DNA of 64,000 bases, from assembly GCF_014697545.1 (NCBI RefSeq), contig NZ_JACJSA010000004.1, positions 186,001 through 250,000 on the forward strand, in the 5' to 3' direction. Each line of letters begins with the position of its first letter. Position 1 is the first letter of the stretch. Origin of the DNA: Oscillatoria sp. FACHB-1407 (GTDB lineage: Bacteria > Cyanobacteriota > Cyanobacteriia > Elainellales > Elainellaceae). Below the pieces are notes generated by a model. The model saw only the letters and a program-made list of their open reading frames with translations, had not been told where the DNA came from and made no database searches. Below, piece after piece: positions 811 through 33,497 of this stretch. Position numbers and translations under genes: made by a program.

Positions 811-3120
811 ATGAAATCTAATCTGGCGAAGCAACTCTTAGGTTGCTTGGGAACCGTTCTCTACGTTGGTTCTCTCAGCCCTATGGTGTTGGCACTCGAT
901 TCCCGACAAACTATTGTGGCTCAAGCCTCGGTCGCTCAAGCCTCCGGTGCTCAGTGTAATCAACAACGTAATCAGGTGACAGAAACAGCGGCACGCGAAT
1001 GGTTGGAGCGCAGCCGCACCTATTCTCAAACGGGTAAACCTGAACAAGGAGCACAGGCTTTGATTCGAGCCTTGCAACTAACGCAACGATCGCCCGATAT
1101 GCGCTTTCGATCGGAAATGGTGCAATCGATCGCTGACGATTCCCCAACTGGGGTATTGCAGGTGTTAGTCGATCAATCGGTGGCACTGCAAAAATTGGAT
1201 GCTGGGCGATCGCCACTGCCATTGATGTTGCAGGTGACGCAAACCTTGCCTACGGCTTACAGTGCTATTAAGACGCAGGGGTTAACGGCAGTCGCAAAGC
1301 ACCATATCCGGTTAGGACAACACCAGCAGGCAACGGGGGTGCTGAGTCAAGCTGTGCAGTCGGCTCGGTTTCTGCAAGGGGCGGAGTTTCAAACCAAAGC
1401 ACTGACTGCGATCGCTCAACAATATGCTGAGCTAGGCGATCGCAACCAGACCCTCGCCTTGTTGGATCAGTCCTTCCAGTTTGCCCAACAGGTGCAGCAC
1501 CCCAACCCACTGCGGCGTGCCTGGATTTTGCAGCCGATCGCTGTGACCTACGCGAAAGCAGGGCAATTTGAGCGGGCAATTCAAATCGCTGAGATGATTT
1601 CTGATACAGATCAGGCGGCGTCTTACGCACGCAATGATACGCTTGCTGCCATTGTTGGTGCCTATGCCACATCTAACCAGATCGATGCTGCGTTGCAACT
1701 GGCTGAACGAATCACGCATCGGGAAATCAAAGCGATGACTCTAGCGCGATTTGCGGGAGTATTTGGGCGATTGGGAGCCGCAGAGCAATCTCAAAGTCTG
1801 TTGAATCGGGCGATCGCGACAGTTCAAGGTGAATCTAATCCAGGCTTTAGATCTAGAATCTTCGCAAATGTGACTCAGACCTATGCCAGGGCGTCAGGCT
1901 ATCCTACGGGTGCGTTACCTGTGGTGAATTTGATTACCGACCCTCTGACTAAAGCTCAAGCCCTGATCGATTTGGCAGCGTTAGAAACTGATTCTAGCCG
2001 AGCCATCTCCCTGGTTAACCAGGGGTTAGAAGTTGCGAGACAAGTTGACAACTGGTCAGTGCAAACGGGTTTAATCAACCAACTGATTGAGGCTCACATC
2101 TCGGTTAAACGATATGCGATCGCTCTGCAAATTGTGCAGTCTTTGCCGGCTGATGGTCCCTTTGCGGACAGATACTCCATTTTGGAACGTATTGCGGCTC
2201 AAGCGTCTGCCAATGGAGAACTTGACATTGCCCTGCAAGCCATTGATGCCATGCCTGCCAACTGGGATGACCCCCGCAATCAAGGACTCCGGGACGTCGC
2301 TGTTGGGTATGCCAAAAACCGACAGTTTGATCGGGCAATGCAATTGTTTCAGCGCATCACCAACAATGGGAGTTATCCCTATCAAGTGAGAACGCTGGCA
2401 GCACTTGCAGACCAGGCCGCTACGCAGGGCGATCGCAACCGCGCCAATGGGTTGTTAGCGCAGGCACTTCAAATTGCCAATCGCCTCACGGGCAACCAAA
2501 AATCGGATGGATTGACAACACTCGCCATTCACTATGCTCGGTTGGGGCAGGCAGATCGAGCCGCTCAGTTGCGATCGCAAGCCTTACAGATTGCCAGTCA
2601 GAGAGATGTGGTTGATAGTGTTAATCAGTTGCGGCAAATGGTGCGACAATACCTCAACGCTCAACAGTATGAGTATGCTGTTCAGGCAGCGATCGCGATT
2701 CGAGAAGAAGGAGAGCGATCGATCACGTTGAATGAAATCGCGGCTCAACTGATTGAAGCAGGGCAATTTGAAACGGCGGTTCGGGCAGCGAATGCGCTTT
2801 CGACTCCAGAGGACAAGACGCGATTTCTGGTGGAAGTCTCTCACCATTACGTTGCAGATGGCAATTTGCAACAAGCCTCTGCCATTCTTGCACAAGCCTT
2901 TGAAACGGCTAAGACCATTTCAGGGCAAGAGTCTCGCCAAATCGTAGTAAGAGAAGATCTGATTGTGGATGACCCCTTTGATCGGGCTAGCTTTTTAGAG
3001 GCGATCGCCCTTAAGTATGCCGATATTGGGCAATACGATCGAGCGATGCAGGTTGCTCAAACCCTGCGAACCCCAAACGTCCGCACTCCGCTCCTCCAGC
3101 GATTGGCTTGTTATCGTTAA
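811..3120 (+). CDS. Secreted TPR-like helical repeat protein
   Basis: This 769-residue protein has a signal peptide (basic start MKSNLAKQ, hydrophobic core to about residue 28). The rest is made of degenerate 34-40 residue helical repeats of tetratricopeptide type. Phrases such as YAKAGQFERAIQIAE, YAKNRQFDRAMQLFQ and YARLGQADRAAQLRS recur, with Gly/Ala at helix-packing positions. No catalytic motif is visible. Proteins of this kind act as periplasmic or cell-surface protein-binding scaffolds; the partner is unknown. It is transcribed alone and ends just before a strong hairpin terminator. The family call is secure at the level of repeat fold, not function. Confidence 0.8.
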   Translation: MKSNLAKQLLGCLGTVLYVGSLSPMVLALDSRQTIVAQASVAQASGAQCNQQRNQVTETAAREWLERSRTYSQTGKPEQGAQALIRALQLTQRSPDMRFRSEMVQSIADDSPTGVLQVLVDQSVALQKLDAGRSPLPLMLQVTQTLPTAYSAIKTQGLTAVAKHHIRLGQHQQATGVLSQAVQSARFLQGAEFQTKALTAIAQQYAELGDRNQTLALLDQSFQFAQQVQHPNPLRRAWILQPIAVTYAKAGQFERAIQIAEMISDTDQAASYARNDTLAAIVGAYATSNQIDAALQLAERITHREIKAMTLARFAGVFGRLGAAEQSQSLLNRAIATVQGESNPGFRSRIFANVTQTYARASGYPTGALPVVNLITDPLTKAQALIDLAALETDSSRAISLVNQGLEVARQVDNWSVQTGLINQLIEAHISVKRYAIALQIVQSLPADGPFADRYSILERIAAQASANGELDIALQAIDAMPANWDDPRNQGLRDVAVGYAKNRQFDRAMQLFQRITNNGSYPYQVRTLAALADQAATQGDRNRANGLLAQALQIANRLTGNQKSDGLTTLAIHYARLGQADRAAQLRSQALQIASQRDVVDSVNQLRQMVRQYLNAQQYEYAVQAAIAIREEGERSITLNEIAAQLIEAGQFETAVRAANALSTPEDKTRFLVEVSHHYVADGNLQQASAILAQAFETAKTISGQESRQIVVREDLIVDDPFDRASFLEAIALKYADIGQYDRAMQVAQTLRTPNVRTPLLQRLACYR

Positions 3121-3132
3121 CCCCCTGCAAAT

Positions 3133-3157
3133 CCCCAGAATCTAAGAGATTCTGGGG
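3133..3157 (+). terminator. Hairpin terminator after the TPR-like gene
   Basis: An 11-bp perfect stem (CCCCAGAATCT with AGATTCTGGGG) closes a 3-nt loop, starting 12 bp after the stop codon. A short T-containing stretch follows. It also lies downstream of the convergent GST gene, so it may serve both. Confidence 0.75.
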
Positions 3158-3248
3158 AGCTTTCTGACTCACCTCTGCCCCATCAAATGTGGCTACAGCC
3201 ATACTGCTACAAATCGCACTCCACCGCTTGCGGCACCGCCCCTGTGCC

Positions 3249-3974
3249 TTACACAGGTTGCAGTTGTTGAATCCGTTGGCGGCGACGACGTTGCCAAACT
3301 TTGGGAATTACCTTCATATGGCGAGTAAAACTGTTCCATTCTTCTGGGCTGAGTTGAATGGCTTGCCAGGATGGACGTGCCAACAACCGCTCAGACCAGG
3401 CGTGTAGCTTTGGATACGGAGTGAGGGAGATTCCCAAGTGGGGCAGTATGGGGACGAGTGTCCCGGCGACGATTTCTGCCAGAGTGAGATGCTCTCCGGC
3501 AATAAAGGGATGATCCGCTGCATCGCTCAACATTGATTCCAGAAAGTTGAGTGTATTGGCAATGCGAAATTGAGCGTATTGAACATCAGGGGTATCGGCG
3601 TTATGAATCAACAACCCAACGACCCCAGGCAACAGTTCATTCAAGGTGACAAATTGCACCATGCGTACATTAGCGAGACTTTCTGGATCGTGGGGTAACA
3701 GCGATCGCGTCGGATATTTTGCTTCTAGATAATCCAAAATCGCTTGTGACTCAATCACCCGAAACCCATTATCGATTAAGACCGGAATGTGTCCAAATGG
3801 GTTTAGAGCCAGAAACTCAGCTTCAAACTGTTCCCCTCCCAAATTCACAGGCACCAGTTCAAAGGGGAGGTGCTTTTCTAGAAGGGCTAACCAGATGGGA
3901 CGGGCATAGAGCGAAGGACGAGCGTAGTAGAGTTTGATTGATGTAGAGTCTGGCTGTTGAAGCGTCTTATCCAT
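3249..3974 (-). CDS. Glutathione S-transferase family protein
   Basis: This 241-residue protein has the two-domain GST layout. The N-terminal thioredoxin-like domain (residues about 14-90) includes KLYYARPSLYARPIWLALLE, the cis-proline segment GHIPVLID, and IESQAILDYLEAKYP, whose ES pair binds the gamma-glutamyl part of glutathione. The C-terminal all-helical domain (about 100-220) contains the conserved LTLAEIVAGTLVP segment. GSTs conjugate or reduce electrophiles and peroxides with glutathione in the cytosol. The C-terminus is unusually basic (RRRRQR). It is divergent from dps, which would fit an oxidative-stress role for the pair. The shared spacer has operator-like repeats. Confidence 0.88.
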   Translation of the reverse strand: MDKTLQQPDSTSIKLYYARPSLYARPIWLALLEKHLPFELVPVNLGGEQFEAEFLALNPFGHIPVLIDNGFRVIESQAILDYLEAKYPTRSLLPHDPESLANVRMVQFVTLNELLPGVVGLLIHNADTPDVQYAQFRIANTLNFLESMLSDAADHPFIAGEHLTLAEIVAGTLVPILPHLGISLTPYPKLHAWSERLLARPSWQAIQLSPEEWNSFTRHMKVIPKVWQRRRRQRIQQLQPV

Positions 3975-20206: not shown

Positions 20207-22981
20207 ATGTTGCGATCGCATCGCCCCCCCTCTGACCCCTTCAAAACGCATTGGATCAGCCTGACCCCCAGACTGATCAGTGGGGGGGTTATCGTCATTA
20301 GCGGTCTGGTCTTAATCGGTTGGTTTTGGAATATCGATACGCTAAAAAGTGTGTTGCCCACTTGGGTCACCATGAAAGCCAATACAGCGATCGCTTTTCT
20401 CAGTGCAGGGGTCGCTTTGGGGGTAGTCCAGCATCAGATACGGCAACCCACATCTACCCAATTGCGGGCGATCGCTCAGGGATGCGCCGGAGCGACGCTC
20501 ATGATTGGTCTGCTGACGGTGAGTCAATACCTGTTTCACATTAATTTGGGCATCGATCAACTTTTAGTGGTTGAGCCTGCTACTGCCGTTGGCACGTCTC
20601 ATCCAGGGCGCATGGCACCCCTGACTGCCGTTAGTTTTATCCTCATAGGGTTGGCATTGCTGTTTTCTAGTCAACGCCTGCAAAATTTTGTTCAACCGAT
20701 TCAAGCGATCGTTTTTACGGTTGGCATTATTGCCTTTCAAGCCCTAGTTGGGTATGCCTACAAAATCGAGGCTCTCTACGGCATTAGTTATTACACGCAA
20801 ATGGCAGTGCATACGGCACTGACTTTTTTGCTGCTGTGTGTTGGCATTTTGTACCTCTATCCCAATCATGGGTTAGTCCGTATTCTGACGAGTTCTACAC
20901 TGGCGGGTTTTCTGGGACGACGGTTATTTTTCTCGGCGATGGCGATTCCCTTAGCCGTCGGTTGGTTGGTCGTTCAGGGACAGCAGATGGGCTTTTACAC
21001 GGCTAAATTAGGCATTTCTCTGTTGGTTATGCTCAGTGTGGTGACCCTCGCACTTCTGGTCTGGTGGAGTATTACATCGTTGGAACGAATTGACGCTGAG
21101 CGGCTCGGTACGGTGCAGGCGTTGCAAGATAGCGAAGCGTCTCGGCGTGAGTTGGCTCAGGTGCAGGAGGCATTGCGCCGCAGTGAAGCCGTTTTTCGCA
21201 GCTATTTTGAATTGTCTCTGGTGGGCATTGCGGTTATCTCCCCTGAAAAAGGCTGGATCGAGGTCAATGCTGAGCTATGTCGCCTGCTTGGCTATTCTGA
21301 GGTGGAGTTATGTCAGATGACCTGGGTCGAGTTGACTCACCCTGATGATTTACAGGCAGACCTTGATTGTTTTAATCAGGTCATCGCTGGTGAGATAGAG
21401 GGGTATGCGCTCGACAAACGCTTCATCCGCAAGGATGGCACTGTCATTCATGCCAGTATGTCCACTCGATGTAGTCGTCGCCCTGATGGCTCTGTCGATT
21501 ACTTTGTCGCCCTGGTGCAGGATGTGAGTGAACGGGTGCGCAATGAAGCAGAGCGGCGGAAAGCAGAGGCTGAACGGGTCAAACTCATTCAGGAACAAGC
21601 GGCTCGTGCTGAGGCTGAAGCGGCAAATCGGATGAAAGATGAATTTTTGGCGGTGCTGTCTCATGAGTTGCGGACGCCGCTAAATGCTGTTTTGGGCTGG
21701 ACACGCCTGTTGCGATCGCGCCAGTTTAGCCCTGAAACAACGCTTGAGGCATTGGAAACCATTGAGCGCAACGCAGAAGTGCAGGCACAACTCATTGATG
21801 ACATTCTCGATGTCTCACGCATTATTCAAGGGCAACTCACGCTCAACCTGTGTCTGGTGGATGTGGGGGCTGTAGTCGAAGCGGCTATTAATTCGGTGCG
21901 GCTAGTCGCTGATGCAAAAGCGATCGCCATTCATTTCAGTCTGGTTCGTGACTCCCAGGCTGACCCTGCCAATACTCGTTCGCTTGTAGTGTCAGGCGAT
22001 CCAAAACGCTTACAGCAGATCTTCTGGAACTTGTTATCGAATGCCATTAAGTTTACCGATAACGGCGGACGGGTTGAGGTGAGCTTGGAAGAGGTAGGAC
22101 ATGGGGCGTCAGGCTTAGGAGATGGGAGATGTGAGGGAGAGAATAGGGAAGAAGCAAATCAGTTTCAACCCACAGCTCACCTTCAGCCTCCAACCCTCGA
22201 CTCCCACGCTTTCGCTCAAATCACCATTACCGATACGGGCAAAGGCATTCATCCTGATTTTTTGCCTCACGTATTCGATCGCTTTCGGCAGGCAGACAGC
22301 TCCACGACCCGCACCCATGGCGGTTTGGGCTTAGGGTTGGCGATCGTACACCATCTGGTTGAGTTGCATCAGGGCACGATCTCGGTTGATAGCCCCGGTG
22401 AGGGACAGGGAGCCACGTTTACGGTCAGATTACCGCTGATGGATAGACCGCAATCGGAGCGCGATGGCCTCCCAGAAGACATGGCTTCCTATCGACCTTT
22501 TGAATCTGGCTATGCACTCCCGATGAATGAGCCGCACTGGGTGTCTCCAACTCCTGTTACTTCGCTGGCAACACCATCCCCTGAAGCTCAAACGCAGCTT
22601 CAAGGGCTGCATGTTCTTGTGGTTGATGATGATGCGGAAACACGCAAATTTCTCAAACTGGTTCTAACCCAGGCAGGGGCAATTGTGACGGTGGTATCGT
22701 CTGCGGTGAGTGCGTTAGATCTACTGGACAAGGTAGAAGCAGATATTTTAGTCAGTGATATCGGGATGCCCTCGGTGGATGGATATGAGCTAATCAACAC
22801 GGTGCGACAACGGTCTGCCAAAGAGGGGGGTACGATTGGGGCGATCGCCCTAACCTCGTATGCCAGAGAGGAAGACAGGCAAAGGGCATTACAGGCTGGG
22901 TTTCAGGTACACTTGACGAAACCTGTTGAGCCTGAAATTTTGGTACAAGCGATTGCAACCCTTGCTTCTTCGACACGCTAG
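20207..22981 (+). CDS. Membrane hybrid sensor kinase (7-8 TM, PAS, HisKA, HATPase, REC)
   Basis: The 924-residue protein begins with an integral-membrane sensor module of seven or eight hydrophobic segments (about 20-290), followed by a short coiled coil. A PAS domain covers about 325-450 (FRSYFELSLVGIAVISPEKG). HisKA has the phosphoacceptor in AVLSHELRTPLNAVLGWTRL. The HATPase domain has FWNLLSNAIKFTDNGGRVEV, DTGKGI and GGLGLGLAIV. A C-terminal receiver (about 800-920) has VDDDAETRKF, the Asp in DILVSDIGMP and the Lys in VHLTKPVEP. About 35 residues of low-complexity sequence (HGASGLGDGRCEGENREEAN and following) are inserted between the N box and G1 box. Signal and partner are unknown; no response regulator gene is adjacent. 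Confidence 0.9.
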   Translation: MLRSHRPPSDPFKTHWISLTPRLISGGVIVISGLVLIGWFWNIDTLKSVLPTWVTMKANTAIAFLSAGVALGVVQHQIRQPTSTQLRAIAQGCAGATLMIGLLTVSQYLFHINLGIDQLLVVEPATAVGTSHPGRMAPLTAVSFILIGLALLFSSQRLQNFVQPIQAIVFTVGIIAFQALVGYAYKIEALYGISYYTQMAVHTALTFLLLCVGILYLYPNHGLVRILTSSTLAGFLGRRLFFSAMAIPLAVGWLVVQGQQMGFYTAKLGISLLVMLSVVTLALLVWWSITSLERIDAERLGTVQALQDSEASRRELAQVQEALRRSEAVFRSYFELSLVGIAVISPEKGWIEVNAELCRLLGYSEVELCQMTWVELTHPDDLQADLDCFNQVIAGEIEGYALDKRFIRKDGTVIHASMSTRCSRRPDGSVDYFVALVQDVSERVRNEAERRKAEAERVKLIQEQAARAEAEAANRMKDEFLAVLSHELRTPLNAVLGWTRLLRSRQFSPETTLEALETIERNAEVQAQLIDDILDVSRIIQGQLTLNLCLVDVGAVVEAAINSVRLVADAKAIAIHFSLVRDSQADPANTRSLVVSGDPKRLQQIFWNLLSNAIKFTDNGGRVEVSLEEVGHGASGLGDGRCEGENREEANQFQPTAHLQPPTLDSHAFAQITITDTGKGIHPDFLPHVFDRFRQADSSTTRTHGGLGLGLAIVHHLVELHQGTISVDSPGEGQGATFTVRLPLMDRPQSERDGLPEDMASYRPFESGYALPMNEPHWVSPTPVTSLATPSPEAQTQLQGLHVLVVDDDAETRKFLKLVLTQAGAIVTVVSSAVSALDLLDKVEADILVSDIGMPSVDGYELINTVRQRSAKEGGTIGAIALTSYAREEDRQRALQAGFQVHLTKPVEPEILVQAIATLASSTR

Positions 22982-24542: not shown

Positions 24543-25442
24543 TTAGCTCACTTTAGCGATCGCCACGTACCACATATTGTTTGGCAATGTCCGCCTGTGC
24601 AGGAATCGCTCCTCCAGGTCGTCTTGCTGCAAGATCTTAACCTGCTGGAATCCCTTTTCCTCCAGCCATGCCTTCATCTCATCCCCATCCATGCCAAACA
24701 AGTATGGCTCTCCAATTTCGGTCAGACGGTCAATGCTGGCAGCTATACCGGGAATTTGATCATTCTTGTAGGTCATCAATGGGGAACAGGCATCAAAAAC
24801 GAGTACGGAATCAGGCGTCATTTGCGATCGCACCGTGTCTAACACCTGAGAAACGCTCTCCTGGGGCAAATAATAGCTAACCCCCTGCCAGACGTAAGCT
24901 GTTGCCAGTGTTGGGTCAAACCCATGATGAGTCAGACGGTTGAGATCATCCTGATTAAAGTCGAGCGGAACGAGGGTTAATCCATTAGGGATATGACCCA
25001 GTTGATTGGTCAGGTACACTTGCTTGTCGTGAATCGTTTGTGGCAAGTCCACCTCAAAGGTGGCAACTCTGCTCTCTTGCACAATCGGCAGTCGAAGGAA
25101 TCGAGTATCGTACCCCGATCCAAGCAGCAATAGTTGTTGGCAGCCTGACGTAATTGCGTCGGTAATGACTTCATCGCCTACCTTCTCTCTGAGAACGATA
25201 TACCAGTAGGCGATCTGTTGAAATCTCTGCACCTCGTCGGTGGGTTCTAAGCCAAGACCCAAGAAATCTTCCTGCAAAGATTGAGCGACGGATTTATCAA
25301 AGAACCAACTGAGATAAGGATCTTCCAGAATGGGATCGGGTTGAAATTGATGAGCAAATTTCAACAAAGCCGTGCCTTTGTTCGTTGACTTACCTAAATC
25401 AATACCCATGAACTTACCGTGTACTCCATCCTCTGTGTACAT
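24543..25442 (-). CDS. SAM-dependent methyltransferase, leucine carboxyl methyltransferase (LCM) family
   Basis: The 299-residue protein has the LCM-family layout: an N-terminal helical part with FAHQFQPDPILEDPYLSWFF, then the SAM motif QLLLLGSGYDTRFLRLP (GxGxDTR), then FEVDLPQTIHDK with the acidic ribose-binding residue, and TAYVWQGVSYYLPQESV downstream. COG3315 members methylate carboxyl groups of small molecules or polyketides; the substrate here is unknown. It converges on the PEP-CTERM gene with 10 bp between ends. Confidence 0.85.
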   Translation of the reverse strand: MYTEDGVHGKFMGIDLGKSTNKGTALLKFAHQFQPDPILEDPYLSWFFDKSVAQSLQEDFLGLGLEPTDEVQRFQQIAYWYIVLREKVGDEVITDAITSGCQQLLLLGSGYDTRFLRLPIVQESRVATFEVDLPQTIHDKQVYLTNQLGHIPNGLTLVPLDFNQDDLNRLTHHGFDPTLATAYVWQGVSYYLPQESVSQVLDTVRSQMTPDSVLVFDACSPLMTYKNDQIPGIAASIDRLTEIGEPYLFGMDGDEMKAWLEEKGFQQVKILQQDDLEERFLHRRTLPNNMWYVAIAKVS

Positions 25443-25460
25443 AGCAACTGAGGGGTTGCT

Positions 25461-25489
25461 TAGGACGGGGTGCAGGGATTCACCCCTAA
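25461..25489 (+). repeat. Repeat family C, copy 1 (hairpin TAGGACGGG...)
   Basis: TAGGACGGGGTGCAGGGATT then CACCCCTAA. Copies recur at 26480-26509 and, inverted, at 60334-60366. The consensus has a stem formed by CAGGGGT and ACCCCTG. This copy lies between two same-strand genes. Confidence 0.65.
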
Positions 25490-25531
25490 TCCACGTGCAA
25501 GTGACTTGGTTATAACCGCAAAACTCACCCC

Positions 25532-26233
25532 TTACAGGACGGGTGTTCGCTGACTATTCACAGCCGCTTCTCGGATAACCTTTAAGACTTCTTCGGGATG
25601 AGAAATCATAGAAACGTGACTTGCGTCTAAAGCGATCGCAGTTGCACCAATTCGTTTTGCTGAATCGCGTTGTAAGTCGGGTGGAATGGTCTGGTCAACG
25701 TTAGAGATGATGTACCAACTCGGTTTACGTTTCCACGCTGGGGTATCTACGGTTGCTTGCAACAGTGATGTAGATGGTGCAGTTTGAGTTGCATAAATGA
25801 GTGCCGCTTGTTCTGCTGAAAGATCGTTCGCAAACGCCTTCTGCACGCCTTCTTGAGCAAGCCAAATGAACCCATCTTGCACTTGAAAGTATTGTGATGC
25901 AGGAGCCGCTTCGTACTGGCTCAAAATGTCTACTACTGTTTCACCCGTATTCGGGGCAAGGGCAGCAATATAAACTAATCCGGCAACCTGTTCGTCATTT
26001 CCAGCTTCAGTAATGACAAACCCGCCCCACGAATGACCAACTAAAATACATGGACCTTCAAGACGAGCTAAAACACGTTTTGTTGCAGCAACATCATCCG
26101 CTAATGACGTCAATGGGTTTTGAACGGCAATAACGTTATAGCCTTCTTGCAATAATGCTGGAATGATCTCACCGTAACTTGATCCATCTGCCCAAAAACC
26201 ATGAACCAACACAATATTTTGAATTTTGCTCAT
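25532..26233 (-). CDS. Alpha/beta hydrolase
   Basis: The 233-residue protein opens with the oxyanion-hole motif IVLVHGFWADGSSY, has the nucleophile elbow GHSWGG (Ser near residue 68), the acid in ISNVDQTIPPDLQ and the catalytic His in DASHVSMISHPEEV. It resembles small esterases of the salicylate-esterase/hydroxynitrile-lyase type, without a lid or signal peptide. Substrate is unknown. It lies about 90 bp upstream of the LCM-type methyltransferase on the same strand, with a repeat C hairpin between. Confidence 0.87.
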   Translation of the reverse strand: MSKIQNIVLVHGFWADGSSYGEIIPALLQEGYNVIAVQNPLTSLADDVAATKRVLARLEGPCILVGHSWGGFVITEAGNDEQVAGLVYIAALAPNTGETVVDILSQYEAAPASQYFQVQDGFIWLAQEGVQKAFANDLSAEQAALIYATQTAPSTSLLQATVDTPAWKRKPSWYIISNVDQTIPPDLQRDSAKRIGATAIALDASHVSMISHPEEVLKVIREAAVNSQRTPVL

Positions 26234-26510: not shown

Positions 26511-29500
26511 TTATCCCTTACCAACACCGATGCTATAGCGTAAGGTTTCCTCTTGACGTTTGACGGCGGCTAACAGTTCGGCATTTTGCAGAATGACTCC
26601 CGCCTGGTTGTTAAAGATCTGCATGTATTTCTGGTCGCTGTGATCAAAGCTGGCGCGAAACCACAGGGGGATATCTTGATCATCAGTGGGTTCGTCCATC
26701 ACTTCGGGCGATCGCCGCTTATTAATCAACTGTGTGACACCAATCAGTTCGCCATCCGGGTTAAACACAGGCATACACAACAGGCTATAGGTGCGATAGC
26801 CACTGCGTTGATCGGTTTTGCGAGCCGTTTCAGAGTCGGGATGTTCGTACAAATCAAAGGGGATATTGATTGGCTTTTGCGTTTCTGCTACTTTGCCTGC
26901 GTAACCTTCTCCAATTTTGAGACGAATTTCTTTCTCGCCCCCCTCATCAAAGGGAATCTTTGTCCACAACTCATTCGTGTAGGGATCGCGCAACCAGAGT
27001 GTGCTGCGATCGGCATTCATTAACTCTTTTGCGGCTTGCATCACCCGCCGCAAGATTTCATCCGGTTCTAAGCTGCTCTGGCTCACGGATCGTGTCGCTG
27101 CCATCAGTGCGGCGGCAACCCGTTGTCCTCTGGCGGTTTTGTGATAGGAGCAGAAGCTTTCAAGAATCATGCGGATGAGCGGTGCATTAGCGACAAATTG
27201 CTGTTCGTCAGCAGCGGTAAAACCTTGTGGATCAACGCGATCGCCTAAGGGCAGTGCAGAGTCATGGGTGCGTTGGAGTTTATTGAGCAGTTGCACGACT
27301 GCGATCAGATCGCCTCGTTCGTTTAACAGTGGCATCGCCAGCATGGTGTAAGTGCGATAGTGGTTGCGCTGATCCTGTTCCTTGGCAGTCTTAGAGCGGG
27401 GGTCATCGTAGAAGTCGAAGGGGATGTTGATAATCTGTTTTGTTTCTGCCACCTCTCCAACGATGCCTTTATTGGCAGGAATGCGAATTTCAAGGGGGCG
27501 ATCGCTGTTTTCAGACTCCGCCACAATCGACCAAAACTCCTCCCGTTCTTCGTCCAGTAAAAAAATCGTGGTGCGATCGGCGCAAAGCGATTTGCCAATT
27601 TTTAGCGTGATCGATCGCAATGTAGTGTCCAGAATGTCATCAAAGCCCTGGTTATCCATCACCTGGCTCAACATACTCAAGGTTTGCAACACTACGCTTT
27701 GAGGCTGATTCTCGGCTTGTCGCTTCATCTCAGCAAACTGGCGAGCATTTTGCAGGGCAACCCCCACCTGAGCATTAAAAATCTGCATGTATTTTTGGCT
27801 GCTGGCATCAAAGCTCGCCTTGAAGCACTCAGGGGCTTCAGGCCATGTTGCCGGGTCATATTCGGGAAACTCTCCCTGGCGGCGTTTGTTTACTAACTGA
27901 GTCACGCCCAGTAGCACTCCATCTGGGCTCCAGACGGGCATGCACAGCAAACTACAGGTGCGATATCCTGTTTTTTGATCGGTTTGGCGAGCCGTTTCCG
28001 AATCAGGATGATCGTAAAGATCGAAGGGAATATTCAAAGTTTCCTTAGACTGGGCAACCATGCCCGCAAAGCCCTGTCCAACATTAATGCGGATTTCTTG
28101 CATCAAGCCATTCTCAAAGCGAACTTTTGTCCACAATTGGTTATTGTCGTGATCCAATAGCCAGAGGCTACTGCGGTCGGCATTCATCAATTTTTTGGCA
28201 GCTTCCATTACCCGCCGGATGATCTCATCGGAATCCAGACTACTCTGCGAGACCGATCGCGTTGCTTCAGTGAGTGCCTCTGACGCTTGCAGGCGTTGGG
28301 TCAGACGATAGCAATCCTGACAACGAGCCAGAATGCGCGAAATGGCAGGAGCATACTCTTCCAACTGGGTTTGGTCGGCATCGGTAAATCCTTGAGGATT
28401 GATGCGCTCTCGCATGGATGCATTGGGATTGTTCGATCGCTTCAATTTGTTAAATAGCTGAATGAACGCCACTAAATTGTGCTGCTCACTCGATAGCGGC
28501 ACCACCAGTTCGCTATACACTCGGTAACGATTGGTCGCAGATGAGGTTTCTTCTGCCTCTATCCGTTCATCCCGGAAGTTGAATGGTGAATTGACCAAAT
28601 TTCTAAAGTTGGTTAACTGTCCGCCGCTGCCCTTGTTTGTAATGACTTGGATTTCTGGTGAACTGCCTGACTCGTGACGTGCAATCACTGACCAGATGTT
28701 GTTCTTCTCCTCATCGATAAAAAAGATGGTGGTGCGATCGACACTCAGCAATTCGCCCAGACGCAATGTGATAGAACCGAGAATCTGATACAAAATATCG
28801 GCAAAGTCTTTGCCCTCCATCACATTTAACATCGAGAGCAATTTTTGCTCCTGGGTTGCCACCACTTGCATGAAATCTGCCTTTAGATCAATCAGGGTTT
28901 TTTGCACCCAATTGTTGTTGAATACGGAAGCATAGATGCGGTTTGCGATTTGCAATTTGCCAGCACGTTTGACGACTAATCCCGATAACCGTAATTCAAT
29001 CTGTTCAGGGGCATCAGAGGCTTCTACTTCTCCCCTTCGCCAAATATTTTGATACAGATCGAGTAAAGCTCGGCTCCGCTGACCAATGCGTAACAGGCGA
29101 TCGCGAATTGTTTTCAAATGTGGCGGCTCATCTGTGGCTTCCCAATTGTCGATCAGGCGCGATCGCACCAGTCCTTCGATCCACTCGGCTTCATGTCCTG
29201 TGGGAATCATCGATTCTGAAGTGTAAATCAGTTGGCAGATCTTCTGAGTGAGAAAAGGTTGTCCTTCTGTCCACGCTAAGATGGCTTCTAAAACCGCTTG
29301 GGGATTATTCGTTTTAGACTGTAAGCCGATCGCCAATGGTTGTACTTCTGAGAGTTGAAATCCGTATAATTCGATTGCTCGACCAATATTAAATGGAGTG
29401 CAATTTTTGTTTTGAATCAAATCGGATGGAGTGGATACACCCAGCAGGGCAAACGTTAATTGTTCGTATTCGTTACACGCTCGAATAAAAGCAAAAAAGT

Positions 29501-29954
29501 CATCAGTGCGAAAGTTTAAACTCAACATGCTGTCAATTTCATCAATGAAAATGACAATAGGCTTATGTACGGATGCCAATAACACTTCTTCGATAAATTC
29601 GCTCAAACGTTGTACGGGCGGTAAAAAATCGCGATCGCGCAACCACGATTGCAGATCAATGGGCAAATGAAAGCTCTTCACTAAACGTCGCATCAATCCC
29701 GCATACCACTGATCGGGAGTGATATCCTGACTGCCAATCTTGGTCAGGTCGATGGCTGCTCCAGCTACCCCTTCGGCTTGTAAACGGTGCATGGTTCGCA
29801 CCCGCAAACTGGTTTTGCCCATTTGCCGCGAGTTCAACACATAGCAAAACTCACCCGCCTTTAAGCCTTCATACAGTTCACGGTCTGCCTGTCGCACCAC
29901 ATAACTGGGTGCATCTAAGGGTAAGTGTCCACCAACTTTATAGGTATACGTCAT
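26511..29954 (-). CDS. AAA-like ATPase with four GAF domains
   Basis: The 1147-residue protein starts [20 protein letters not shown], typical of the AAA_35-type STAND-like ATPases of cyanobacteria. Walker A is NSRQMGKTS (41-49) and Walker [10 protein letters not shown] (about 134-142); the ATPase plus winged-helix region runs to about 330. Four GAF domains follow at about 385-545 (A), 570-745 (B), 770-930 (C) and 950-1130 (D). B and D are near duplicates ([16 protein letters not shown] against [16 protein letters not shown]), and A resembles C, so a GAF pair was duplicated. GAF C contains NK...FTAADE, a full NKFDE motif as in cyclic-nucleotide-binding GAFs; A has FTDADQ. No catalytic output domain is present. 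It lies 17 bp after the TIR-ATPase gene and is probably cotranscribed. I chose the ATG at 29954 over a TTG at 29969. Confidence 0.88.
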
Positions 29955-29971
29955 GGGGTTAAGACTCAAAA

Positions 29972-31936
29972 CTAGACCTCAGAATGACCGAAGCGATCGC
30001 CAAAATAATGTTGATAAAGCTGAAAGCGAGGCGTAACTTCATTGCCCTGCAATTGCACCAGTCCTAAACTGTGCAGCTTAAACGCCAAAATTGATGCCAG
30101 TTCAACGGATTGGTGGCTCGTTACCACCCGTTGAAAGGCGATCGCCAGTTCTGGGTGGTGTTGCAAGTTCCACAAATGCCGCCGCAGGTGATCGCCATAA
30201 ATCCCTGCTTCTGTAGGAGCCGTTTCAATTAATTGGGGTAAGGTCAACTGCCCCTGGGCGATGTGATAGAGTGCCAACCGCACGAGATACGGATGCCCAC
30301 CAACAATTTGCATCAACTGGGCAACCTGGTCTGAGTGCCAATTCAAGCCGTGCCGCCGCGCCAGATCGCTGACTTGCTCTGGACTAAACTCTGATAACTC
30401 AATCGGCAAACCCACATTAAAGGGGGACTGATTCACATCAAGTGGAATGTAAACCTCGGTGGAATGCACTACAATCAAGCGCAATTTTTCCCACAATCCG
30501 CTGTCGCTGTCGCCATATCCCGCCTCCTCATACCAGGCGCGTAACAAACCAAAAAAGTCATCCGCAATTTTGGGATATTGAAATACCCGATCGACTTCAT
30601 CCAATGCCAACACCATCGGCTGATCAATTTCAGATAACAAACAGTCTTCAAAATAGGCTGTGCAGTTGTCCTTGCTGCCATAGGTGTCTGACCAATATTG
30701 GTCAACGGCATGGGGGAGATGCAACCTGCGGGCGACACGAGTACATACCCATTGCAACAGTTGGTCTAAGCTTTCAAACACCGCTCTATCGGCGTGTTGA
30801 AAACTAAGGGGGACTGTGCGATAGCCTTGCTCACGCGCTTGATGCAAAATTCGCGACATCAGGGAAGTTTTGCCCATTTGTCGCGGAGCTTTAATGCGAA
30901 TTAATGTCCCTGGCTGCACGATCTCACGATAACATCGTGCTTCGTAGGGCGATCGCTCCACATAAAACTGAGAATCTAATCGTACCTGTCCCTGCGGTAG
31001 TTCCGGGTCAGCGATGGGGCAAGGCGTTGGCAAGGTGGGAGAGGGACTGGGAACCGCCAGAGGATGGATGTGAAACACTGGAGATTGGGTGGTTAGGGAC
31101 AACTCCTGACGGTCAATTAGCCCCGTGAGAGAACTGCTTTGCAGGGTTGCATTGCCATTCGCCCCATCCCCGTTAATCACATCTACGATCGCTTGAATGA
31201 CCGCTGTACTGTCCATCGGGGATTGCCAAACCCACTGATGCACATAGCGCAAATAATTTTGTAGGTCATGGTTGAGCGGCATTTCCGGCGGACAGTTGAC
31301 CTGAATCGGCAGGATGATCGGGTGATAGCGATGGCTTTTGCTTTGCAACTCCTTGACTCGTCGCAACTCTTCCAACACCATCTCGCTCACTGCTGCCTGA
31401 GGAGACAACAACAAGATAAAAAAATCACACCGTGCCAGACAGGCATCAATGTGGGTTAACCAGTCCCGATCCGACTGACCATATGTAGTTGGAATGATCC
31501 CTGTATCCACCATAAGAATGTGGTGTCCTGCGGTGGCGATCGCCTCACACAAATCGGTTGCTAAACAGCGATCGGGTTCCTGGCTACGATGGCTGACAAA
31601 GATCTGTTTGACAGCCTGCTCTGACATTTTTTCAACTCTTGTTGCCTCCTGTGAAAGGACAGCAACTGAGGAATGCGTTTGTCGTTGAAATGTTCTTTCT
31701 AATGCCCCACGAAATTGTTTTTTAGTGACCTTTTCTCCTAATACTGTTGATAATTTTTGCCACAATTTGTAGCCCACATATTTTTCGACGTACTCCGGGT
31801 TGTTGGGGTAAATCTCTTCATAGGTTTGCCCCTGCCACGACCCCATAAAAACATCTCTTTCTAAATTGCTGAGGTGTTTTCCGGTCTGGTCATAAATCAA
31901 ACCATCCACAAATTCCAATGCTGTTTTAGCATCCAT
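29972..31936 (-). CDS. HTH-TIR-AAA-like ATPase protein, putative conflict or signalling effector
   Basis: The 654-residue protein has three parts. Residues 1-82 ([20 protein letters not shown] ... [15 protein letters not shown]) resemble the N-terminal HTH found on vWA-MoxR-associated and AAA-like proteins of cyanobacteria. Residues about 110-235 form a TIR domain: [17 protein letters not shown], then [17 protein letters not shown] and [10 protein letters not shown], where Glu190 occupies the place of the catalytic glutamate of TIR NAD hydrolases. After a proline-rich linker (290-315), a STAND-like ATPase begins near 320 with Walker [10 protein letters not shown] (350-358) and Walker [11 protein letters not shown] (441-450). 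TIR domains in bacteria often cleave NAD or make signal nucleotides on infection; activity here is inferred. It heads a two-gene operon. Confidence 0.87.
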
Positions 31937-32642
31937 ACGATTTCAGGAACGATCAGAATCAAACAATACACAAACTGGCACTCAATCTCAAAAACTCAAA
32001 CACAGTGAGTGAGAGCATGGGCGATCGCAATTTTCTAAAAAAATCAGCTCACACTTTCCGAAAACACAGACTCCGCTGTTGAATGGAACTCTATCCAAGT
32101 TCACTCAACTCAACACACTACTGGGGTAATTGTGACTTCAATTCTAAGGCATTCCACGGAGACTCCTTTGATCTAGATCACATATATGAATGAGTAGAAT
32201 CATCCTGCTTATTAAGCTAAATAACACATACCCAAACGACTTACTACCAAAAAAACTCACTTCAATAACACTCACCTCAATCGTTGGCCATCAAGATTGA
32301 GGACAAAATACATTGAGTTTTTATGAGGTTATATGAGGTTTAAAAAACCAACGGTCAATTATTAATAACCCTTGTCTAAGGGTGCATGATTAACGTTGTC
32401 ACATCCATACGGGAGTCTACAGAAAATCTTTAATACCAACTGAAAATTCGTAGGGGTGTTTCAGAAATACTTTTAGAGAAGTGATATGTGAACTCAACCG
32501 TAAAACAAATTGATCAAGATCACAGGTTCACTTTCAGGAAGTATGAACTTTTCTGGTTGTTGTTGCTTGTTGTTTTAGGGATAGTGAGAAGCAACCAAGG
32601 AGAAACAACAAAGCGACCAAAGCACCCAGAGGAGTATGTGAT
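31937..32642. other. Long AT-rich divergent regulatory region
   Basis: Some 700 bp separate the TIR-ATPase operon from the HD-phosphohydrolase gene. The stretch is AT-rich compared with its surroundings, has a short direct repeat (TATGAGGTTATATGAGGTTT near 32320-32341) and no credible gene. It should contain both promoters. Confidence 0.5.
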
Positions 32643-33497
32643 ATGTTTAACCCCACAGAAGTCATGATCGATCAATGCGTCAAACGGTTGACCAGTGGCT
32701 ATCATCAAGCCTTTGGTAATCGCGACACAGAGTATGCTGATTTAATCGGTTGGGTTGCCCATCTCACTCTAGAGGCGATCGCCCACAGTGACGCTCCCTA
32801 CCACGACATCGAACACACGATTTTGGTGACCCTGGTTGGACAAGACATTTTGCGTGGTAAGCAGTGCCTGGATGGATATGTATCACCCAAAGATTGGGCA
32901 CATTACATCATCTCGTTGTTGTGTCACGACATCGGTTATGTCAAGGGAGTTTGTCAGCCCGACCAGATGACCCAACGCCTCTTTGCAAGTGGAAGAGGTG
33001 ACAACTTGGTGCAACTCGCCGCCGGAGCCACCGATGCCAGTCTGACTCCCTATCACGTTGATCGCGGACAACAATTTGTCGCTGAAAAGTTCTCCAATCA
33101 TCCGTTGATTGAGGTTGCTCTGATTCAAGACAACATCGAGTTAACCCGTTTTCCGGCACCGGATCGGGACCTCTATCGCGACACCTATCACTATCCCGGT
33201 TTGACGAGAGCCGCTGATTTAATCGGGCAGTTGAGTGACCCCCGCTATCTACAAAAGCTGCCAACGCTGTTTTATGAGTTTGCAGAAACAGGCACTAACC
33301 AGCAGTTGGGTTATCATCATCCTGATGATCTGCGGGCTAGTTATCCCAACTTCTACCGCAAAGTTGTTTATCCCTATGTGCAAACGGCATTGACCTATCT
33401 CGAAGCCACTCAACAGGGACGGCAGATTGTGGCAAACCTCTATGCCAATGTTTTGTCGGCTGAGCAAAATTACGCGGGCTTAAGTCTTGCTGCCTGA
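32643..33497 (+). CDS. HD-domain metal-dependent phosphohydrolase
   Basis: The 284-residue protein follows an AGGAG ribosome binding site. The HD signature is split as YHDIEHTILV (His54, Asp55, His58) and LLCHDIGYVKG (His95, Asp96). The Y-H-D-x-x-H-x-x-x-V spacing is like the YHNxxHxxxV motif of class I cyclic nucleotide phosphodiesterases, so it could hydrolyse a phosphodiester or phosphomonoester of a nucleotide; other HD substrates are equally possible. Similar stand-alone proteins are common in cyanobacteria as hypothetical metalloproteins. It is divergent from the TIR-ATPase operon. Confidence 0.8.
   Translation: MFNPTEVMIDQCVKRLTSGYHQAFGNRDTEYADLIGWVAHLTLEAIAHSDAPYHDIEHTILVTLVGQDILRGKQCLDGYVSPKDWAHYIISLLCHDIGYVKGVCQPDQMTQRLFASGRGDNLVQLAAGATDASLTPYHVDRGQQFVAEKFSNHPLIEVALIQDNIELTRFPAPDRDLYRDTYHYPGLTRAADLIGQLSDPRYLQKLPTLFYEFAETGTNQQLGYHHPDDLRASYPNFYRKVVYPYVQTALTYLEATQQGRQIVANLYANVLSAEQNYAGLSLAA

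Follow-up and report, generated by a model that had tools for sequence, protein, structure and literature searches.

A doubled CyaB-type GAF pair in a cyanobacterial locus of paired NTPases, a TIR domain and a phosphodiesterase-like HD protein suggests a switch run by cAMP

The stretch of 64,000 nucleotides of Oscillatoria sp. FACHB-1407 that was analysed here (the window) carries a gene whose product joins an NTPase to four GAF domains. The question raised by this locus is whether such a protein senses a cyclic nucleotide, and what it would then control. The gene, called gene B below, encodes 1152 amino acids on the minus strand at positions 26511..29969, as delimited from the open reading frame listing, Pfam and the orthologs. 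Its reading frame can begin at a TTG at 29969, but an ATG at 29954, which had been proposed in the initial annotation, agrees better with the start of the orthologs and is likely the true start.

The N-terminal part of the protein (aa 14-351, 28917..29930, minus strand) is an AAA_35, STAND-like NTPase domain, recognised by Pfam, by its Walker motifs and by a fold search. The Walker A motif RQMGK(T/S)S and the Walker B motif DExD are kept in 50 of 50 orthologs, and the nearest folds are STAND and NB-ARC ATPases (2qen, Z 19.4; the plant NLR RPP1, 16.7; CED-4, 15.0). Because both Walker motifs are conserved, a cyclic-nucleotide-gated ATPase is plausible for gene B. A scan with GAF-a and GAF-b models placed four GAF domains after AAA_35, in the order a-b-a-b and all encoded on the minus strand: GAF A (GAF-a type, aa 390-549, 28323..28802; GAF models, ortholog alignment and pLDDT), GAF B (GAF-b type, aa 563-741, 27747..28283; GAF models and alignment), GAF C (GAF-a type, aa 777-937, 27159..27641; alignment) and GAF D (GAF-b type, aa 951-1129, 26583..27119; alignment and fold search). 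Gene B does not encode a CyaB adenylyl cyclase, as neither a PAS nor a class III cyclase domain was found after the GAFs. The loss of a cyclase that once followed GAF D was also considered and could be ruled out, since all full-length orthologs stop at the same place. Downstream of gene B and on the same strand, positions 24543-26233 hold an alpha/beta hydrolase gene and a gene of the leucine carboxyl methyltransferase family, and a hybrid sensor kinase with a membrane part, a PAS-like part, a histidine kinase and a receiver was recognised by eye at 20207-22981.

Among solved structures, the gene B GAFs are most closely related to the tandem GAF of Anabaena CyaB2 with bound cAMP (1ykd, E 7e-157), a similarity far beyond chance, and the predicted structure of GAF C-D matches this pair with a Z of 31.5 over 365 residues. 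Both sequence and fold therefore relate the array to GAF-a and GAF-b of CyaB2. From the near identity of B and D and the resemblance of A to C, the initial annotation had proposed the tandem duplication of a two-GAF unit. The motif strings that it quoted are all present in gene B, and B and D are indeed almost identical in stretches, but overall they share only 63% identity. This value is barely above the 61% between B and CyaB2 GAF-b (59% for D and CyaB2 GAF-b) and is insufficient as proof of a duplication within gene B. Likewise, C is nearer to CyaB2 GAF-a (64%) than to GAF A (42%), and A and CyaB2 GAF-a share 46%. A tree of 69 single GAFs, in which the GAF-a and GAF-b halves root each other, was more informative: A and C form a clade (support 100/100) that also holds a single GAF from another locus of the same genome (L033), B and D form a second clade (99.6/94), the CyaB GAFs are excluded from both, and each of the four GAF positions is monophyletic across 13 orthologs. 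These two clades support a single ancient tandem duplication, by which one GAF-a/GAF-b pair was doubled once. The separation from the CyaB1/CyaB2 lineage preceded this event, and the divergence of the orthologs followed it. A tree of concatenated GAFs agrees with this doubling when a distant cyclase is taken as root; in its unrooted form the placement of the cyclases was uncertain.

A small side group may have a separate history of the GAF array. At L068:2315-5281 and L069:970-3918 the same four-GAF array is found, but AAA_35 is reduced to its C-terminal half and lacks the P-loop, and no gene of the HD family treated below was found in their genomes (G022 and G020, respectively). L092 (G368:C49:189543-193001) is a second gene B paralog, 48% identical, in a genome that also has an ordinary gene B, and its GAF pairs cluster with those of L068 and L069. 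The L033 locus (1574-3685), on contig C41 of the genome of the window, encodes a TIR protein of 528 aa directly followed by a stand-alone GAF of 170 aa; this GAF clusters with GAFs A and C and not with CyaB, and the locus is a second TIR-GAF pairing in this genome.

In CyaB2 GAF-b, cAMP is contacted by R291 (at the adenine N1), T293, I308, D356 and N359 (PMC4411481). These positions were counted over 50 gene B sequences, using CyaB2 numbering. GAF B has the best-kept pocket, with R291 in 50/50, T293 in 47, I308 in 45 and D356 in 50. GAF D has R291 in 50/50, T293 in 44, I308 in 42 and D356 in 50, and GAF C has R291 in 49/50, T293 in 39 (Ser in another 10), Ile or Val at 308 in 48 and D356 in 48. 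The pocket of GAF A is eroded (R in 39, T in 39, I in 25 and D in 20), and R362 and T363 are kept there in 11/50 and 10/50 sequences only. By these counts the pocket residues are present in B, C and D and lost in A. GAF A is also the least conserved of the four, with a mean identity of the orthologs to the window protein of 47%, against 75% for B, 69% for C and 67% for D, and in the predicted model its lid (442-450 and 461-480) has a pLDDT under 50, in contrast to the confidently modelled equivalent regions of the other three domains.

An array of this kind could be free of ligand and act as a dimerisation or spacing scaffold for the NTPase, with sensing left to another part. The lost pocket of GAF A and the erosion of the NKFDE motif in A, B and D fit such a role, and non-binding GAFs are known as dimer interfaces in tandem-GAF phosphodiesterases. 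We nevertheless consider it improbable for the array as a whole, as B, C and D show almost no variation at the pocket residues, whereas GAF A drifts in the very same proteins, and the keeping of R291, D356, R362 and T363 is unexpected for a pure scaffold.

NKFDE is the usual marker of cyclic-nucleotide-binding GAFs. In the window it is complete in GAF C only (N896, K897, F917, D921, E922). GAF A ends with FTDADQ, GAF B has NK followed by FDASSQ, with D and E lost, and GAF D has NK followed by FDHSDQ, with E lost; the initial annotation had left out the motifs of these last two. The initial annotation had correctly read the intact motif of C and the final Glu to Gln change of A; as a guide to the competent domain, the motif turned out to be misleading. 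Across the 50 orthologs, N, K and F are kept in all four GAFs, the D of GAF B is replaced by S in 48/50, and the E is missing from the majority of A, B and D domains and from 15/50 C domains. In GAF A the pocket is gone, although N, K and F, and usually also D, are still there. Since the pocket is kept both in B, where D and E are lost, and in D, C does not appear to be the single competent domain, and B and D are further candidates for cyclic-nucleotide binding. GAF B, with the best pocket and a broken motif, is a real puzzle, because the NKFDE residues make no contact with the ligand and yet their mutation abolished or weakened binding in PDE2 and PDE5 (PMC11977230). Motif and pocket disagree in both directions, and care is therefore needed when GAF domains are annotated by NKFDE.

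Homology to 1ykd and conservation of the pocket make cyclic-nucleotide sensing by gene B well supported, in line with the type of GAF first proposed. Of the two common ligands, cAMP is more likely than cGMP, because Arg291 is kept; this residue is common to GAF-a and GAF-b of the cAMP-binding CyaB2 and to PDE10A GAF-b, and is replaced by Ile in the cGMP-binding PDE2A GAF-b. The locus could instead be the receptor for a different messenger, be it cGMP, a nucleotide of the cCMP/cUMP type or a TIR-derived signal. Isolated CyaB2 GAF-b binds both cAMP and cGMP (PMC4411481), position N359 is T or S in GAFs B and D, cGMP is present in cyanobacteria (PMC4284465) and the neighbouring TIR protein could make a nucleotide signal. 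The conserved Arg, together with the cAMP-bound CyaB2 pair being by far the nearest solved relative, makes this alternative unlikely.

What gene B would control is suggested by its neighbours. Gene A (29972..31936, minus strand, 654 aa; open reading frame listing and Pfam) lies directly upstream, with 2 nt between its end and the TTG of gene B, or 17 nt if the ATG is taken as the start. It encodes an N-terminal domain, a TIR domain (aa 112-227, 31256..31603, minus strand; Pfam TIR_2, E 5e-11) and a canonical AAA_35 domain (aa 314-646, 29999..30997, minus strand; Pfam, 508 bits) in which the Walker motifs are invariant in the alignment. Among the folded parts of gene A, the TIR shows the lowest conservation; Glu occupies the usual catalytic position (E190) in 22/29 sequences, and the neighbouring E189 is found in 28/29. 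The genome of the window holds about ten such two-gene AAA_35 pairs (L021-L030). The gene A proteins of these pairs carry a TIR, a LuxR-type HTH, a GGDEF or an N-terminus with no assigned domain, and the gene B proteins combine a divergent AAA_35 with WD40, TPR or FHA modules, two of them having no further recognised domain. Among these gene B proteins, that of the window is the one found with GAFs. The pairs, with their exchangeable modules, look like a combinatorial paired-NTPase family. One WD40-type gene B (L027) has no adjacent gene A.

The third gene of the locus is transcribed divergently (32643..33497, plus strand, 284 aa). It was assigned by NCBI family, predicted fold and alignment to NF045583, named Npun_R2479 family HD domain-containing metalloprotein, for which no paper was found in the literature searched. 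The predicted model (pLDDT 90.6) matches catalytic domains of class I phosphodiesterases over its whole length, with PDE10A (Z 17.3, 231 residues, 3.6 A), PDE6C, PDE5 and trypanosome PDEB1 among them; the PDB is rich in PDE10A entries, and the sheer number of hits is therefore of little weight, but class I phosphodiesterases also account for the other matches listed. H54, H58, H95, D96 and D192 are invariant in 27/27 members linked to gene B and in 28/28 unlinked ones. The HNxxH ... HD ... D metal and catalytic residues are thus present, their equivalence to the phosphodiesterase residues being drawn by motif. N55 is replaced by D in 8/27 linked members, including that of the window.

Direct sequence matches are weaker. 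The Pfam family PDEase_I was matched by 11/22 linked members, with a best E of 0.002, and no HD gene reached the Pfam cut-off among linked members or in the genome search. In 7/14 genomes searched the best PDEase_I match was the linked HD gene beside gene B, over the HNxxH part only. A profile of the HD family had no match among PDB sequences, so that the likeness to class I phosphodiesterases comes from the fold search only. The class I cyclic-nucleotide phosphodiesterase fold is a prediction, and one that would give a family which is widespread in cyanobacteria, and named only as an HD metalloprotein, an activity open to assay (cNMP phosphodiesterase). The protein could also be a metal-dependent hydrolase for another substrate, its place at the locus reflecting shared regulation and not cAMP turnover. 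These sub-threshold Pfam matches and the wide occurrence of the family without gene B (209/388 genomes) are consistent with this view, which we hold to be rather doubtful, as the top fold matches are class I phosphodiesterases and the linked copies form a group apart from the unlinked ones, which have a clade of their own.

The association of the three genes is well conserved. Gene B orthologs, mostly 56-75% identical, are carried by many of the filamentous cyanobacteria. The GTDB genomes yielded 45 loci, including some in Leptolyngbya, Microcoleus, Planktothrix and Phormidium, and a match at E 1e-200 was obtained in 27/388 genomes of the class. For 34 distinct loci the sequence extended 4.4 kb or more upstream of gene B; of these, 28 have the complete trio of HD gene, gene A and gene B, two have gene A only and four have neither partner adjacent; in two of the latter four genomes the HD gene and gene A lie side by side elsewhere. 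In the family of the window, two HD genes are present in each of the five carriers of gene B, and no non-carrier has more than one (Fisher exact, about 3e-6). A carrier from another family, G218, showed a single HD gene, in a draft genome where gene B is near a contig end. Class III cyclases (PF00211) are present in 27/27 carrier genomes, although such cyclases are common in these cyanobacteria and their presence discriminates little. A CyaB1-type cyclase was rejected as an obligate partner, as none was found at E 1e-200 in the f13 carriers, where, as in all carriers, some PF00211 cyclase is present.

One or more extra genes lie between A and B at L100, L104, L105, L112 and L131; one of them begins with MPSPFPGVDPYLE and is DUF4058-like by eye. 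The gene B copy of L067/L126 (G018) is broken by several stop codons or frameshifts and is probably a decaying gene.

The computation shows the domain content, the duplication, the conservation of the pocket and of the gene linkage, and the predicted phosphodiesterase fold. The conserved three-gene locus points to a cAMP-controlled NTPase switch more than to an isolated oddity. Most of the functional argument is carried by the TIR-NTPase partner and the phosphodiesterase-like gene, both of which were missing from the initial annotation. The model that we propose is that gene B is a cAMP-sensing STAND-type NTPase paired with the TIR output of gene A, while the HD protein lowers the cyclic nucleotide locally; we judge its chances to be about even. 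A CyaB-like GAF-a/GAF-b pair would have been doubled once before gene B spread among filamentous cyanobacteria, after which GAFs B, C and D would have kept their cAMP pockets and GAF A would have come to serve chiefly for spacing or dimerisation. With cAMP bound, the GAF stack would change, and the connecting helices would carry this change to AAA_35, altering its nucleotide state or its assembly. By contact between the two proteins this change could be passed to the partner NTPase of gene A, with the TIR as the likely output, and hydrolysis by the HD protein, acting as a local cyclic-nucleotide sink, would set the threshold. The regulated NTPase is N-terminal to the GAFs, unlike in CyaB, so the signal would have to travel in the opposite direction or act by way of oligomer assembly. 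The complete arrangement, a paired STAND/TIR switch under cAMP that has its own class I-type phosphodiesterase and spreads the GAF-plus-phosphodiesterase logic of animal PDE2/5/6 over separate bacterial genes, is put forward tentatively; it would belong to a family with about ten such NTPase pairs in a genome, with C-terminal modules that can be exchanged.

Several observations weigh against a cAMP switch. The D and E of NKFDE are lost from GAF B in nearly all orthologs, the CyaB2 GAFs act on a C-terminal domain, the PDEase_I matches are weak, the TIR Glu is not invariant, and in 4/34 loci gene B has no adjacent partner. A serious competitor, although it falls short of an even chance, is that A and B form a cAMP-tuned regulator of transcription or housekeeping (motility, nutrients) with no part in defence or cell death, the TIR serving for protein contact and not as an NADase. 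The imperfect conservation of its presumed catalytic Glu would agree with this, as would the PADLOC search, in which no defence model matched the locus and the component models for Pycsar, CBASS and Thoeris gave chance-level matches only. Other gene A proteins have a LuxR-type HTH or a GGDEF in place of the TIR, and cAMP governs motility and nutrient responses in cyanobacteria (PMC4284465). On the other side, four other gene A proteins of the window's genome also bear a TIR, and STAND NTPases with TIR domains are typical of conflict systems of multicellular bacteria, according to the consulted parts of PMC7159879 and PMC8195603.

Each part of the locus is of a known kind. As in Anabaena CyaB1/CyaB2, gene B has a GAF-a/GAF-b pair with cAMP-pocket residues, at about 60% identity, but it differs in having two pairs in a row, an N-terminal AAA_35 NTPase, no PAS or cyclase domain and an eroded NKFDE in GAFs A, B and D. 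Tandem GAFs of the cNMP type and a class I phosphodiesterase-like catalytic fold are shared with PDE2, PDE5, PDE6 and PDE10, whereas here the GAFs are fused to an NTPase and the phosphodiesterase-like domain is encoded by a separate, divergently transcribed gene. The likeness to plant paired NLRs, in which a sensor NLR works with a TIR-NLR executor, is one of operation: two NTPases, one with a TIR and one with a variable sensor. The gene B NTPase has an NB-ARC-like fold, as plant NLRs do; the comparison is an analogy and is not meant to imply a common origin of the pair. Bacterial STAND/TIR switches are mostly thought to answer invader molecules or special nucleotide signals. If our model is correct, the classical second messenger cAMP would be connected to such switches. 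An NTPase switch, a TIR and modular signalling domains are also features of STAND/TIR conflict systems such as VMAP and iSTAND, and GAF and cNMP-binding domains are mentioned among their nucleotide-binding parts, in the portions of PMC7159879 and PMC8195603 consulted. The AAA_35 gene pair with exchangeable modules, the CyaB-type GAF array and the phosphodiesterase-like gene set the locus apart from the systems in those portions, where the set of GAF-NTPase, TIR-NTPase and phosphodiesterase-like protein is not described. The term 'AAA-like domain-containing protein' was used by only one paper in the literature searched.

The divergent intergenic region (31937-32642, 706 bp) contains two copies of a 14-mer, TGTGATCTNGATCA, which is close to the cAMP-receptor-protein consensus bound by cyanobacterial CRP homologs (PMC4284465). 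A motif search placed the first at 32169..32182 on the minus strand (TGTGATCTAGATCA, resembling a cAMP-receptor-protein site) and the second at 32511..32524, also on the minus strand (TGTGATCTTGATCA). In 31 ortholog regions, 13 sites matching TGTGAN6TCACA with at most one mismatch were observed against 0.47 expected, with the regions not being independent, as five or six come from near-identical Planktothrix sequences and another two represent the same genome, read twice. The genome as a whole has many one-mismatch sites (225, compared with 167 in the control), and the CRP-like sites were therefore not taken to prove control by CRP. What may be considered notable, as a lead more than a result, is limited to the 14-mer in its exact form and the fact that it recurs at related loci: in the 8.13-Mb genome, exact copies occur at these two places alone.
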